Shown in pieces: positions 19,401 to 24,801 of a DNA stretch of 34,635 nucleotides. Below the pieces are notes generated by a model. That model saw nothing but the letters and a program-made list of their open reading frames with translations. It was not told the DNA's origin and searched no databases. A program made the position numbers and the translations under genes. The first letter of the stretch is position 1; every line of letters begins with the position of its first letter. Origin of the DNA: Akkermansia muciniphila (GTDB lineage: Bacteria; Verrucomicrobiota; Verrucomicrobiia; Chthoniobacterales; Chthoniobacteraceae); assembly GCA_945883955.1 (NCBI GenBank), contig CAMCYN010000011.1, forward strand, positions 1-34,635, written 5' to 3'.

Positions 19401-20344
19401 CCGCGAAGATGCGCCTGGGCCCATTGAAACTTTGAAAATGGGAGTGCCTGCCAGCCTAGAAACTGGGTGATCTCCTCGATGGGAAAGTCTGCAGCGGAAA
19501 ATTCCAGTTTAACGTCCGAGTCTGATGTCCCCTTGGCTTTTTGGGAGAACACGCTGCCGCTGGCCCAGCCTCCGCGATACTGCAGCCGGAGTGCGATCCG
19601 GCTTTTACCGAGGGAGCGTTCCGAGGCGTCAAAGCTTAGGGAGGACAGTTCGAGGTCGGGGTGGAGTTTGAGTCCGGTGACGAGAAGGTTTCGTTGGTTG
19701 TAAGAGGTAGCGGCGTTCCAGTTTTGGAAAACGGCCCCATTGGCTAGTGCGATTGAGGTTATGGAGAGAGAGCCGGGGTGGTCGGGACGGGCTGAGAGGC
19801 TTGCGCCGAGGATGGAACGAAGTGTTTGGCTGCCTTCGATTTCCAGGTTGAGATTGGTAATGTGGACGGCATCGGCATAAAGGGCGGGTTGGGCCAGGAT
19901 GTCCTCGATTAGTTCGGCAAAGCTGCGGGTGCCGGTGCTTCTGGTGACGGAGGCTTTGAGCCGGAGGGTGGCACCGTCGATGGAATACGAGTTGATGCAT
20001 TCGCCCGGGCCCGACCAGAAAAGGCGGAGTAAATTGTACTGGATGGTCGCCTTTTGGACCTGGATGGCGGTGACGGTGGGGTGCGGCGAGGAGAGGGGCC
20101 GAAGGTCGACGGCTTCGAGCGAGAGATTGCTAAAGACGTTTCCTGAGAGGCGGATTTGAAGGGAGAGCCCGTCTTTTTTTGCGGCATGGCGCAGGGCCTG
20201 TTCAATGCCGGAGAGGAGAATGGGGCGGTGGAAAAGAAGGACGGCTAGAAAGAGAAGGGCTGAAATACGCCAAATGGGACGGCCCAGTCTTCGCCGCCGG
20301 AGGGGAGGCTTATGGGAGGGATGGGAGTCCGGGCCGGCAGGCAT
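16427..20344 (-). CDS. tamB: TamB-like translocation and assembly module protein
   Basis: A 1305-residue protein with a basic N-terminus, one transmembrane anchor (about 26-45, 'ISALLFLAVLLFHRPILL') and a very long beta-rich periplasmic body of AsmA/TamB type, ending in the TamB C-terminal domain (about the last 350 residues). That domain includes 'ILDFTAETEVRNHRIRMYLTGS', 'LNSDPPLNETDLLTLLTTG' and the final '...KLTYRMNDNFFMIGELGANGD' region that contacts TamA. TamB proteins bridge inner and outer membranes and are implicated in outer-membrane protein insertion and phospholipid transport. Its stop lies two bases before the tamA ATG. The ATG at 20344 has no Shine-Dalgarno. It diverges from argH across 128 bp. 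Confidence 0.9.
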   Translation of the reverse strand: MPAGPDSHPSHKPPLRRRRLGRPIWRISALLFLAVLLFHRPILLSGIEQALRHAAKKDGLSLQIRLSGNVFSNLSLEAVDLRPLSSPHPTVTAIQVQKATIQYNLLRLFWSGPGECINSYSIDGATLRLKASVTRSTGTRSFAELIEDILAQPALYADAVHITNLNLEIEGSQTLRSILGASLSARPDHPGSLSITSIALANGAVFQNWNAATSYNQRNLLVTGLKLHPDLELSSLSFDASERSLGKSRIALRLQYRGGWASGSVFSQKAKGTSDSDVKLEFSAADFPIEEITQFLGWQALPFSKFQWAQAHLRGTPKKPASWKGQADIRTITPLPTPTEPLVTEIHAAFQSGAFHLENLEAYSGTSTAFATGEVKLPPSISELSQLTGHLQVRADVEDLADWGSLMQPVPFNGSAHISGTLAIGGGTAQLSLQGNAETPGSTPVQFTQGTALLALRANVANILDPKQFHGRLELSLEAPSIYAPQGSATFEKITASASIDLGRVLVEKLTLTQNSNRIIATGEIPFASRQTPLRLEIQASCPSLETTGLTLRGHPVAGEIQGTVSAQITNGHLGGSARLSAGPLNWGGFDLGEFKSNISLSEGTLAVEDLLLRWDKDEWAQMSGSTEIAPPHTYALKVEAHVASLQRFEPLFRQSGIDTAIRGQIAGDWTGQGTIQPLSGTGRWNLSIKNAHFKSLDLKEVLCSGTYAPGQLKAAPIRIATPHTRLDTQIAWSDDTLKVQQISLEQWGYPTLSGFLVLPIGWSKNGAHWNENSSLSGELTANRLDLVTLFTAAGLPTPVAGSVKFTASLGGTPAAPTALFNLAARELRSPSHPNLGSGEIDLSGHYSSGAFVSDVTLRSTLQSPARVHVRIPVALGDLLLAKTDPSQIPVQARLELHKASLKSLPSLLWPGFKKVDGSFSMDADIGGTLLKPTWRGSCTLDAPVIHFVSYRFPAITELQAAIDFDEHELRLRKLRADLGGGTLTVNGSAHLHGNDNATLDFHAVGHEILIVRSRDLLLRLNGDVHLRGPWNQATISGKASSTKSRVTRDIDLLPVNVLKKSAMAIPVSASGPGKPWFTFQRSPFSEWKFDVSLRTTPEDPFLIRGNRLHGSAQADIKLKGTGAAPTLEGNYKTTDLVAYLPFARIQIFRGHFWYSPNKPFIPILDFTAETEVRNHRIRMYLTGSQETPRINLNSDPPLNETDLLTLLTTGILPGDTSENGQALAGRAAAVLFQELSGKVFESKDNKDRLSALRRFSLDVGALNSRTGHQETKLTYRMNDNFFMIGELGANGDFGGQIKYLLRFR

Positions 20345-20472
20345 GGTGGCTTCAAACTAAAGGCAGGTTTGGCTTGCGGCAAGAGGCAGAGAGCGGGAGG
20401 TCACAAGGCTTTTACCTTTCGGGCGCGGAGCTTTTGCCCTACTCACCGTGGCTCACCGATTATCTTCCGACT

Positions 20473-21837
20473 ATGTGGAAAGGCCGCTTTCAGCAACCAA
20501 CTGCAGAGCTTCTGCAAACTTACTCCGAATCGATTTCCTTTGATTGGCGCCTGTGGCCATTTGATATCGTGGGCTCGATTGCCCATACCGCAGCGCTGGA
20601 ACAGGCGGGGTTGATCACCGCCGAGGAGACCGAGCTCATTGGTTCGACTTTGCGGGAGATTGGCGCGGAGATCGAGGCTGGGCAGTTCGTGTTTAAGCGG
20701 GAGCTGGAAGATATTCACATGAATATCGAGGCGGAACTGACCCGGCGGATTGGGGATGCGGGAGCCAAGCTTCATACGGCCCGAAGCCGGAACGATCAGG
20801 TGGCGTTGGATATTCGGCTCTATCTGCGCGAGGAATGTGACCACGTGGAGGCGCAGATTCGGGAATTGCAAAAAGCGCTGGTGACTCTTGGGGAAAGATA
20901 CAGGGAAGTGATCATTCCGGGGTACACCCATCTGCAGCGAGCCCAGCCGGTTTATTTCGCCCATCATTTGCTCGCGTACGTGGAGATGTTCGAGCGCGAT
21001 TGTGCGCGGATTGAGGATTGTCGCAAACGGATCAATGTTTTCCCGTTAGGGTCGGGTGCGATTGCTGGATCGACCATTTTGCTTGATCGCGAGCTGGTGG
21101 CCAAGTTGCTGGATTTTCCTGCCATAACTCAAAACTCCATGGATGCCGTCAGTGACCGTGATTTTGCCATCGAGCTATTATCGGCCCTTTCCATTGTGGC
21201 CATGCATCTCTCCCGATTGAGTGAGGATGTGATTTTGTGGGCGTCGAGTGAGTTTCATTTTATCACGCTCTCGGATGCCTTTACGACGGGATCCTCGTTG
21301 ATGCCCCAGAAGAAAAATCCGGATGTTGCGGAGCTGACCCGCGGGAAAACTGGACGGGTTTACGGAAACCTGATGGCGCTTTTGACACTGATGAAAGGGT
21401 TGCCGATGACCTACAACCGGGACATGCAGGAGGACAAGGAAGCGATTTTCGATTCCCTCGATACGGTTCGGAACGCCCTGGGGGTATTTGCGCCAATGCT
21501 GCTGGAGGTGCGTGTTAACGAGGTGTCCTGTGCGGCGGCCGTGGCCGACCCCAATTTGCTGGCGACCGACTTGGCCGATTATCTGGTTTTGCACGGACTG
21601 CCTTTCCGGAGTGCCCATGAGGTTGTTGGCCGTGCTGTGGGATTGTGTTCGGAACGTGGGTGCCAGTTGCCGGAGCTGACGCTGGAGGATTATCAAAAGC
21701 TGTCGCCGTTGTTTGAGTCGGACGTGCATGAGGTTTTGCAGGTGAAGCGCTCTATGGCCGCACGGCGTGCGACGGGCGCGCCTGCGCCTCAGAATGTTGC
21801 CGCACAGTTGGCCCGGTGGCGGGCGGCGCTTGGGTAA
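20473..21837 (+). CDS. argH: Argininosuccinate lyase
   Basis: A 454-residue enzyme of the fumarase/aspartase superfamily that cleaves argininosuccinate to arginine and fumarate, the last step of arginine synthesis. It starts 'MWKGRFQQPTAELLQTYSESISFDWRLWPFDI', aligned with the family's 'W.GRF....'. 'HTARSRNDQV' (101-110), 'GYTHLQRAQP' (150-159, catalytic His153) and the lyase signature 'GSSLMPQKKNP' (273-283) are all present. The reading frame stays open upstream to 20179, but that extension is arginine/glycine-rich, lies opposite the tamB start and is not part of the family, so the ATG at 20473 was chosen. Length matches E. coli ArgH (457). No Shine-Dalgarno; CTTCCGACT precedes the ATG. Confidence 0.96.
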   Translation: MWKGRFQQPTAELLQTYSESISFDWRLWPFDIVGSIAHTAALEQAGLITAEETELIGSTLREIGAEIEAGQFVFKRELEDIHMNIEAELTRRIGDAGAKLHTARSRNDQVALDIRLYLREECDHVEAQIRELQKALVTLGERYREVIIPGYTHLQRAQPVYFAHHLLAYVEMFERDCARIEDCRKRINVFPLGSGAIAGSTILLDRELVAKLLDFPAITQNSMDAVSDRDFAIELLSALSIVAMHLSRLSEDVILWASSEFHFITLSDAFTTGSSLMPQKKNPDVAELTRGKTGRVYGNLMALLTLMKGLPMTYNRDMQEDKEAIFDSLDTVRNALGVFAPMLLEVRVNEVSCAAAVADPNLLATDLADYLVLHGLPFRSAHEVVGRAVGLCSERGCQLPELTLEDYQKLSPLFESDVHEVLQVKRSMAARRATGAPAPQNVAAQLARWRAALG

Positions 21838-21845
21838 TGTGAATT

Positions 21846-22445
21846 ATGCAATTTCATGAGTTTGTTCAGGATGGCCCGGGATGGGTGACTCACAATCGCG
21901 AGGTGGTGTTTGAGAACCCGTTTCTGGAAATTCAGAAGGTGAATCTCAGTTCGCCGGCTCGTCCTGAAGGGTTTGAGTGGACGGTTTGCCATCGCAAAGG
22001 GGGGGTGGCCGTGGCCGCGCAAACTCGCGAGGGTGGGTTTGTTTTGATCCGCCAGGAGCGGGTGCCGATTCGGGCCGAGCTTTGGGAGTTTCCGGCAGGC
22101 CAGATTGACGAGTCGCGAGGCCATGATCCGGAGGCGGTGCAGGCGGCTGGGCTTCGCGAATTGAAGGAAGAGTCGGGCTACGAAATGGGACCCGATGGCG
22201 AAGTGGTGCCGATGGGGTATTTTTTAAGCAGCCCAGGGTTCACGGACGAACACACGTACTTGCTGTGGGTGCGCGGGGTGGTACCCAGTGCGGAGGGGGC
22301 CAGTCATGATCCCGGAGAGGCGATCGTAGAAGTGCGGGTCTTTAGTGCCGTAGAGCTTCGCCAAATGGTGGCTCACGGCGAGATTCGGGATGCCAATACG
22401 TTGTGTTGTCTGGCGAAATTGAGCGTGTTTGCGGCACCGAATTGA
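21846..22445 (+). CDS. Nudix hydrolase, probably ADP-ribose pyrophosphatase type
   Basis: A 199-residue Nudix hydrolase that likely cleaves a nucleoside diphosphate linked to another moiety. The layout (an N-terminal beta extension 'ENPFLEIQKVNL', then 'GGVAVAAQTREGGFVLIRQERVPI', 'WEFPAGQID' and the Nudix helix 'RELKEESGY') is that of ADP-ribose/sugar pyrophosphatases. The Nudix box runs from Gly85 to Gly111: E96-x7-R104-E105-L-x-E108-E109-x-G111 is intact, but ten residues instead of five separate Gly85 from Glu96, a five-residue insertion in the loop. It starts only 8 bp after argH, so it may be co-transcribed. Its substrate cannot be fixed from the sequence. Confidence 0.87.
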   Translation: MQFHEFVQDGPGWVTHNREVVFENPFLEIQKVNLSSPARPEGFEWTVCHRKGGVAVAAQTREGGFVLIRQERVPIRAELWEFPAGQIDESRGHDPEAVQAAGLRELKEESGYEMGPDGEVVPMGYFLSSPGFTDEHTYLLWVRGVVPSAEGASHDPGEAIVEVRVFSAVELRQMVAHGEIRDANTLCCLAKLSVFAAPN

Positions 22446-22533: not shown

Positions 22534-23742
22534 ATGAAGGTTGTTCTCTGTCCTAACTCATCCGAAACCGAGGGCCTCATCCGCAAGGCCGTTGCGCCCC
22601 TTGGGTTGACTTTGGAGTGTAGTACAGACGTGCGGTACGTGACCGACATGATTGCGGCGGCGGATTGTCCTGTGCTTGCAATCCTGAGTATGAACATTTC
22701 AGGAATCTCAGGCATGAGTGTCTGCGAGGAGTTGACCGCCGCGGAAACGGCCCGGCCAATTTCGGTATTGCTTCTCGGGACTGATAATAATGTTAAGACG
22801 GTTGCTGGTGCGTATGCTTCTGGGGCGGACGATTATGTGGTATTGCCCTGCGATTTGGCGGTGCTTGCGGCTCACATCGGAGCGGCTGCCCGGCGGTTGG
22901 TTCGCTTTGAGCACATGCCGGGTTTTGATAAGAACAGCTCTTCAAACCGGCAGAAGACGGCAGCAGTCCCCATTCTGACGCGACCGACGGCACCGCCGCC
23001 CCAAGCGCCCGAGGCCAGTCCGAAGCGCTCTGCGGAAAATACGTTCGCCGATCAATTTCTTGCTATTCCGACGTTGCGGGATGCGAAAGCGCACACCCTG
23101 AACGGCTTTAAGGCCCTGCATGTCCCTGGTGTGGTGGAACTGGAGGCCGTTGCTTTCGTCGGGGCCGAACCGACCATGGGCGCGTGGTCCGCGCTTCTAC
23201 TTCCAAATCAAAATCTTTGGTTGGATGTGGTGGTGGAAACGGATCGACAGTCGGCTGATTTTCTTTACCGGCATCTTTCTGGCGTCAAGCCGGTCACTTC
23301 CGAGGATTCTGCCAGTGCGATGATTCAGCTGGTGAAGACCTTGAAGGAACAACTGCAGGTTTCTTTTCAGGCGGCGGGCGAAGAGGTGATTCTGCCGATT
23401 CTGCCCCGTCGGGTGCCCGCTTCGGAACTCGGCGGACTGAGCCGCTTTGTGGTAGACCGGATGCGTCTGGCGGTCGGTTCGCCGCAAATCCAAGTGTGCG
23501 TAAGCTATTTTGCGAGTGAACGGGCTTCGATTTATAAAAAGATCGAGCAGCTGCGTTCGCGTGAGATCACCGATGAGATGATTCCGTTGCCGGATTCCCA
23601 TCACCCTCTGCTCAATCGCGGGGTAATGCTCGATGAACGCAAGCTCAACTTGTTACGCAATCGCTTCCTCAACCACGAGTCTGATGTAGGGATTCGCGTG
23701 TTCGAGCCGTCGTCCGTTTCGTCGGTTATTCAATACGTGTAG
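22534..23742 (+). CDS. Degenerate response-regulator receiver protein with CheX-like domain
   Basis: A 402-residue cytoplasmic protein. Residues 1-123 follow the receiver (REC) fold ('VLAILSMNISGISGMSVCEEL', 'GAYASGADDYVVLPCDLAVLAAHIGAAARRL'), but the phosphorylation residues are gone: Ser52 replaces the phospho-acceptor Asp, Leu104 replaces the invariant Lys before Pro105, and the N-terminal acidic pair is missing. A Pro/Ala-rich linker (about 140-170) leads to a second domain (about 190-305) whose pattern ('VVELEAVAFVG...', then 'SAMIQLVKTLKEQLQVSFQAAGEEVILPILPRRV') resembles CheX/CheC phosphatases, but I do not see the catalytic E..N pair. The C-terminal ~95 residues are unassigned. It is likely a phosphorylation-independent regulator; the partner is unknown. 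The ATG follows CCCCCTGAT, with no Shine-Dalgarno, 88 bp after the Nudix gene. Confidence 0.68.
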   Translation: MKVVLCPNSSETEGLIRKAVAPLGLTLECSTDVRYVTDMIAAADCPVLAILSMNISGISGMSVCEELTAAETARPISVLLLGTDNNVKTVAGAYASGADDYVVLPCDLAVLAAHIGAAARRLVRFEHMPGFDKNSSSNRQKTAAVPILTRPTAPPPQAPEASPKRSAENTFADQFLAIPTLRDAKAHTLNGFKALHVPGVVELEAVAFVGAEPTMGAWSALLLPNQNLWLDVVVETDRQSADFLYRHLSGVKPVTSEDSASAMIQLVKTLKEQLQVSFQAAGEEVILPILPRRVPASELGGLSRFVVDRMRLAVGSPQIQVCVSYFASERASIYKKIEQLRSREITDEMIPLPDSHHPLLNRGVMLDERKLNLLRNRFLNHESDVGIRVFEPSSVSSVIQYV

Positions 23743-23862: not shown

Positions 23863-24801
23863 ATGAGCTTTCGTATCATTCTTCTGTCGTCTCTTGCCAT
23901 AGCCCTGTCTGCTTCTGCGGCTGACGCGCCCAAGCGCAAGATCCTCTTTTTCTCCAAATCCAGCGGGTTCGAGCATGAGGTGATTTCCTGGAAAAAAGGT
24001 CAGCCCAGTGTCGCTGAGAAATCTCTGCTCGAGCTGGGGGAGGAAAACAACTGGGAGTTTATCTTCTCCAAGGACGGGTCGAAGTTCTCCACCGAATATC
24101 TCAACGGGTTTGATGCCGTAATGTTCTACACCACGGGCGACCTCTGTTCGGAGGGCACCGATAAACACCCGCCGATGACTCCGGCCGGAAAACAGGCTCT
24201 TTTTGACTATGTCCGGTCTGGCAAAGGGTTCATTGGAACCCATTCTGCAAGTGACACATTTCACACCGACAACGAGTCGCAGAAAGGCCCGGAGCGTTAC
24301 GTCAACCACTACGAAAAGGCCGATCCTTATGTGCGCTTTCTCGGAGCGGAATTTATCAAACACGGCGCGCAGCAGGTGGCTAAAAACACGGTCATCGATT
24401 CCAGATTCCCTGGCTTCGAGACCCTCGGCCCGGATTTCTCTTTCCAGGAGGAGTGGTATTCATTGAAGGATTTTTCGCCCGATATCCATGTGCTGACCGT
24501 TCTGGATGCGCCGGCAATGAAGGGAGTCGAATATGAGCGGCCTCCATTTCCGAATACCTGGGCGCGTATGGAAGGAAAGGGGCGTGTCTGGTACACGTCA
24601 ATGGGGCACCGCGAGGATGTCTGGACCAACCCTATTTTCCGCAAGGCTCTCAAGGGCGGAGTCCAGTGGGCCTGCGGCGATGTGAAGGCCGATGTAACAC
24701 CCAACATCAAAACGGCCGCGCCCGAGGCAAATATCAATCCTCCGTACGTCGCTCCCAAACCACCCGCCGTTAAACCGGCGCCTCCAGCGGCGGCAAATTA
24801 G
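23863..24801 (+). CDS. Secreted ThuA-domain protein
   Basis: A 312-residue exported protein with a signal peptide (about 1-19, cleavage after ASA) followed by a ThuA-like domain (about 25-270, class I glutamine amidotransferase-like fold): 'KILFFSKSSGFEHEVI', 'FDAVMFYTTGDL', 'GKGFIGTHSASDTFHT', 'YVRFLGAEFIKHGAQQ', 'EEWYSLKDFSP' and 'GRVWYTSMGHREDVW'. ThuA was named for trehalose utilisation in rhizobia; in PVC and Bacteroidetes genomes such secreted proteins accompany glycan and sugar degradation. The C-terminal 40 residues form a low-complexity Pro/Ala/Lys tail. The enzymatic reaction is not established. It is convergent with the PVC dehydrogenase gene, separated by a strong hairpin. Confidence 0.85.
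   Translation: MSFRIILLSSLAIALSASAADAPKRKILFFSKSSGFEHEVISWKKGQPSVAEKSLLELGEENNWEFIFSKDGSKFSTEYLNGFDAVMFYTTGDLCSEGTDKHPPMTPAGKQALFDYVRSGKGFIGTHSASDTFHTDNESQKGPERYVNHYEKADPYVRFLGAEFIKHGAQQVAKNTVIDSRFPGFETLGPDFSFQEEWYSLKDFSPDIHVLTVLDAPAMKGVEYERPPFPNTWARMEGKGRVWYTSMGHREDVWTNPIFRKALKGGVQWACGDVKADVTPNIKTAAPEANINPPYVAPKPPAVKPAPPAAAN

Follow-up and report, generated by a model that had tools for sequence, protein, structure and literature searches.

A verrucomicrobial receiver-CheX fusion protein with both active sites substituted, a probable phosphorylation-independent binding protein

What is left for a signaling protein to do when its receiver and its phosphatase domain both appear to have lost their active sites? 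The question is posed by an open reading frame in the window, the 34,635-nucleotide stretch of DNA that was analyzed. The encoded protein combines a receiver, a CheX-fold domain, and a C-terminal module (residues 331 to 402) in a single chain, and thus belongs to a verrucomicrobial REC-CheX family; receivers fused to CheC or CheX domains occur elsewhere. The original prediction, made from the DNA alone, was of a pseudo-receiver joined to a CheX-like domain without catalytic residues, with a binding-only role. Its core, a doubly inactive receiver and CheX fold, is retained here, but it missed an origin beside chemotaxis genes, the C-terminal module, and the wider family. The features are listed in the table.

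Table. Coordinates of the REC-CheX gene, its parts, and its flanking genes in the window
Feature	Coordinates	Strand	Remark
Whole REC-CheX gene, product of 402 aa with substitutions in both active sites	22534..23742	+	open frame
Pseudo-receiver domain, residues 1-125	22534..22908	+	P7/N8, S52, G82, L104 at five catalytic positions
Linker, residues 126-172, low model confidence	22909..23049	+	
CheX-fold domain, about residues 173-330	23050..23523	+	Q265, K268 in place of CheX E..N pair
Family-specific C-terminal module, residues 331-402, low model confidence	23524..23739	+	81% identical to orthologue
Nudix hydrolase, upstream neighbor	21846..22445	+	order same in sister genome
ThuA-family protein, downstream neighbor	23863..24801	+	order same in sister genome

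The receiver half is recognizable at low scores. Pfam Response_reg (PF00072) matches the protein with an E value of 1.8e-5 and 25.3 bits, under its gathering score of 30.2, and many NCBIfam response-regulator models also match (best, 3.2e-10), all under cut-off. The AlphaFold2 model, made from five sequences (mean pLDDT, 72.1), has the full (beta-alpha)5 order of secondary structure in residues 1 to 126, and Foldseek and VIA both match it to receivers (VIA Z up to 18.1 over 119 residues). Alignment with relatives places Pro7 and Asn8 at the acidic pair, Ser52 at the phosphorylated Asp, Gly82 at the Thr/Ser, and Leu104 at the Lys, and all five catalytic residues are therefore absent from a domain that retains the fold. 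This agrees with the original prediction of a recognizable receiver that has lost its phospho-Asp, Lys, and acidic pocket, and it corresponds to a pseudo-receiver as defined in a 2025 review (PMC12632262), namely a domain computationally recognized as a receiver in which key phosphotransfer residues are missing. In a representative set of bacterial receivers, about 6% are pseudo-receivers (PMC12632262, section 4), so a dead receiver alone is ordinary.

Describing the second domain as a CheX relative is justified through che-linked relatives and the predicted fold, and not from the window clade (the window protein and its two closest relatives) alone. The CheX model PF13690 gives no match to the window protein at E values up to 5, and a direct profile match failed, since the three-sequence clade profile reaches a probability of 0.34 against canonical CheX, within the range of 100 column shuffles (up to 2.18). 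The clade does match che-linked relatives in a profile-profile comparison (probability, 99.94; E, 3.7e-37), and the profile of those relatives matches canonical CheX (probability, 91; E, 1.1e-6). The window protein is also homologous over residues 1 to 396 to the che-linked paralogue in the same genome (full length; E, 6.2e-51), whose second domain falls just under the PF13690 cut-off (1.6e-5; 25.3 bits against 27). Foldseek with the window model, the alignment for which included che-linked relatives, retrieves a CheX/CheC-like set (3h2d, 1squ, 3iic, 3hm4, 1xko, and 6vpw) at TM scores by target of 0.61 to 0.74, including 3h2d at an E value of 1.1e-6, 1squ (Thermotoga maritima CheX) at 2.3e-6 and TM 0.66, and 6vpw at TM 0.74; the VIA list is full of receivers and thus provides no test of this domain. 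When the domain alignment was used as a profile against the PDB, designed repeat proteins ranked first and CheX entries scored weakly (best, 0.01); the window domain alone returned no CheX entry. Aligned with relatives, Gln265 and Lys268 occupy the CheX Glu and Asn positions. The predicted CheX/CheC-like domain lacking its E..N pair is thus borne out by homology to relatives, fold, and residues, but not by a profile match of its own. Of the checks proposed with it, the HMM-HMM comparison connects the domain to CheX by way of the che-linked relatives and not directly, and structure prediction recovers both a receiver fold and a CheX-like second domain.

In the AlphaFold2 model, residues of about 126 to 168 are disordered, a CheX-like alpha/beta region follows, and confidence is low beyond about residue 340. 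A resemblance of the C-terminal module to an HD-GYP-associated segment was considered and rejected, as a search of seven genomes with a module profile gave only family members at strong E values, the best nonfamily match (0.0127) being in a frame with stops. Of the window open reading frames scanned, none matches a kinase, chemotaxis, or motility family, and a scan for promoters and terminators gave no more than shuffled sequences. The longest argH frame (window positions 20179 to 21837) begins upstream of its likely start, and the argH frame of a sister genome begins at an MWKGRFQ stretch, at about window position 20473.

An orthologue with 73% identity in the sister genome, G002, shares the reading frame and the start, and argH, Nudix, gene, and ThuA follow one another there in the same order. 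The orthologue has Pro, Asn, Ser, Gly, and Leu at the receiver positions and Gln and Lys at the CheX positions, and a second copy in the window's own genome (C232; 48% identity) has Pro, Asn, Gly, Gly, and Leu, with Gln and Asp. These three proteins, found in two genomes only, form one clade (support, 100/100) inside a group with che-linked relatives (100/99), and each of them has substitutions at the five receiver positions and the two CheX positions. Leu104 is kept in all three and Ser52 in two, with Gly in the third, and none has the intact Asp or Lys that the orthologue search proposed originally could have revealed. Because the losses are common to the orthologue and the more distant paralogue, they are not a recent decay. 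The genus has three full-length che-linked proteins, and these already have Leu, Leu, and Phe at position 104, so the receiver Lys was probably lost before the clade arose. Between window gene and orthologue, pN is 0.178 and pS 0.77 over 400 codons; synonymous sites are saturated, so the contrast is qualitative only and yields no usable ratio, although it shows strongly restrained protein change and argues against decay. Amino acid identity is 66% in the receiver, 82% in the CheX-like part, and 50% in the linker (48% over residues 123 to 172), with 82% for the neighboring argH. The helix that bears the E..N positions is 86% identical between window protein and orthologue and on average 11% identical to those of four che-linked proteins.

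The absence of kinase, chemotaxis, and motility genes noted in the original prediction is true locally, but the nearest relatives outside the clade, one of them in the same genome, directly adjoin cheA and retain both residues of the CheX E..N pair. The third full-length copy of the window's genome lies on contig C3, divergent from cheA, at a locus identified by Pfam as coding for CheA (Hpt, dimer, HATPase, and two CheW stretches), CheW, MCP, CheB, and CheR; in this copy the acidic pair, the Asp, and the Thr are present, the Lys is missing, and GE..N is intact. Genomes G011 and G006 have a similar cheA-side arrangement together with a separate single-domain CheY-like receiver, and since neither has a PF13690 match at an E value of 0.01 besides REC-CheX, the fusion may be their sole CheX-type phosphatase. 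The window's genome also codes for FliM, further CheW loci, and two canonical CheX proteins on contig C17; with its che-linked REC-CheX, cheA, cheW, cheB, cheR, and MCP genes, the catalytic roles are therefore covered elsewhere. The REC-CheX paralogue of the sister genome (C143) runs off the end of its contig, which leaves any cheA linkage out of view. In both genomes that carry it, the doubly substituted gene co-occurs with a paralogue of the che-linked type. Stand-alone relatives of the second domain with GE..N and without a receiver are present in both genomes (L033, 1056-1808, and L036, 768-1538), with no che genes adjoining among the open reading frames read. Two adjacent canonical CheX genes with differing GE..N contexts are frequent in the genus and family (L121, L122, and L124 to L130).

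Together these features are best explained by a phosphorylation-independent binding protein. A paralogue of the lineage's CheA-linked REC-CheX would have left the che cluster and lost both catalytic centers while retaining both folds and the C-terminal module; the dead receiver and dead CheX fold would present interaction surfaces, and activity would be set by amount or partners, not by phospho-aspartate chemistry. In CheX-type phosphatases, an inserted Asn positions water and an acidic residue meets the receiver Lys, and both matter for activity (PMC3035606). Because Lys and Gln occupy these positions, canonical catalysis appears unlikely in the window protein. The FrzS and WhiI pseudo-receivers act through protein contacts (PMC12632262, section 19), and with dead CheC/CheX folds serving structure in other systems (see below), a binding protein is favored. 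A binding-only role, as proposed originally, is accordingly rated as likely, and the whole explanation, including descent from a CheA-linked phosphatase, as reasonably probable. The partner is a guess from ancestry and co-occurrence with the active-type paralogue: the active REC-CheX of the same genome, CheY, or CheA might be bound, the protein then being a noncatalytic modulator (a mixed dimer or decoy) of CheY-P removal. This is put forward tentatively, at somewhat below even chances; the conserved neighbors argH, Nudix, and ThuA point to no partner, no che gene adjoins, and both facts count against the explanation, as do the failure of the clade profile to match CheX, the small size of the clade, the Gly at position 52 in its third member, and the saturated synonymous sites. 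If either the active paralogue or CheY is bound, chemotaxis would be tuned by a double pseudo-enzyme. The 2025 review (PMC12632262) describes the on-off control of bacterial pseudo-receivers as a mystery.

The strongest competing account is that the protein was neofunctionalized outside chemotaxis, as an adaptor or allosteric subunit of an unrelated system, with a new partner bound through the CheX fold and the C-terminal module. None of the three clade members is che-linked, the argH-Nudix-gene-ThuA linkage is common to two genomes, the divergence of the E..N helix from che-linked proteins and its conservation in the orthologue are as expected of a repurposed surface, and receivers with CheX folds lacking E..N are common away from cheA in the wider family. 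Yet the gene occurs only in genomes that also have the che-linked type of paralogue, and no co-occurring nonchemotaxis partner was found, so that this account is considered rather unlikely. A decaying relic without function would fit the loss of all seven catalytic positions and a receiver that is the less conserved folded half, but the frame is open in all three clade members, the CheX-like part is conserved like argH, nonsynonymous change is restrained, and the orthologue is kept at the same locus in two genomes; a relic is disfavored and very improbable. Residual or altered catalysis, with Gln265 (with Lys268 or Asp) providing a water-positioning amide, draws on the fixation of Gln265 in all three members and on the Gln amides that have this role in CheZ and the Rap phosphatase RapH (PMC3035606). 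The Gln is at the acidic position, however, the Asn position being Lys or Asp, and the same source requires the acidic residue for wild-type CheC/CheX activity, which makes this reading highly improbable.

The binding protein favored here has partial counterparts in known systems. It shares the CheX fold of T. maritima CheX (1squ/1xko; PF13690), as its che-linked relatives share the E..N pair and the Pfam match, but it fails the Pfam model, lacks Glu and Asn, is fused to a receiver, and has an extra C-terminal module. Like FrzS, NblR, and other pseudo-receivers (PMC12632262), it has a receiver fold without the five catalytic residues, and the FrzS receiver 2i6f is one of the Foldseek matches of the model; unlike them, its receiver is joined to a CheX-fold domain, and the terms CheX and CheC are absent from the main text of that review. 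FliY of Campylobacter and Helicobacter has a CheC/CheX-family fold without phosphatase sites, and the CheC-like middle domain of FliM serves as a structural belt of the C-ring (PMC6946799); an SPOA domain and a flagellar C-ring role belong to those proteins, whereas a receiver, and no SPOA match, is found in the window protein. CheA-CheC/CheX fusions of Leptospirae likewise join a CheX-fold domain to a chemotaxis signaling module, but the module is a kinase and not a receiver (PMC10782961). The REC-CheX family was not found described in literature on REC-CheX fusions, CheX output domains, and verrucomicrobial chemotaxis, a survey lying mostly outside subscription papers, nor were such fusions found in passages of PMC1183210, PMC5847659, PMC2577667, PMC9239204, and PMC12826062. 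What we have not found described is thus the combination of a dead receiver with a dead CheX fold, and a family with opposite single losses.

That family is diverse. The second-domain profile matches 5 of 213 genomes of the order and, with the own genome included, 4 of 387 from the phylum and 9 of 384 from the class, and searches re-centered on distant members match 13 of 252 and 10 of 293 genomes. The set of 35 full-length REC-CheX proteins is limited to frames that cover almost all of the family model, partial frames (e.g., L153 and L180 to L182) being left out; five further rows were dropped, namely two stand-alone CheX-like proteins, a contig-truncated paralogue, a protein without the first receiver positions, and a presumed duplicate truncated frame. 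A complete receiver with a lost E..N is found in 22 of the 35, an incomplete receiver with a kept E..N in 7, both complete in 1 (G1019), and neither in 5 (the three window-clade proteins, G287, and G708), so inactivation of one domain is, judged by residues, the norm. Context is available for 28 of the 35: cheA adjoins in 7 of 8 proteins with a kept E..N, including all 7 with an incomplete receiver, and none of the 20 stretches around proteins with a lost E..N contains cheA, the length of the stretches varying from about 5.5 kb up. Receiver completeness and E..N retention are lopsided in their counts (Fisher p, 0.0008), but on the tree the former changes once and the latter three times, and an independent-pairs test has a single pair; with so few evolutionary events, we do not claim that the two sites have traded off independently during evolution.

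These counts raise the possibility, which we hold with less than even confidence, that Verrucomicrobiota contain an undescribed REC-CheX family in which the CheX fold has turned into a general output or binding module. The cheA-side subfamily would combine a live phosphatase with a dead receiver, the subfamily away from cheA a live receiver with a dead CheX fold, and the window clade, derived from a kinase-linked enzyme, would be dead in both and purely structural; the near absence of doubly intact proteins (1 of 35) would be due to counterselection of phosphatases that cancel the signal of their own receiver. The family offers a natural series, with receiver alive, phosphatase alive, both, or neither, that separates binding from catalysis. 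The subfamily that combines a complete receiver with loss of the CheX Asn is large, has no cheA nearby in the stretches read (L090, L093, and L185 to L195), and often forms tandem pairs (G912, G808, G927, and G807); its CheX fold looks like a noncatalytic output domain. The G1019 protein with both sites intact is at about 7805-9094 of L184 (minus strand), with no cheA in the surrounding 12.3 kb stretch. Two very divergent REC-CheX-like proteins (L094, 7442-8686, and L095, 3377-4879, both minus strand) have no E..N and keep only the phospho-Asp among the receiver catalytic residues.
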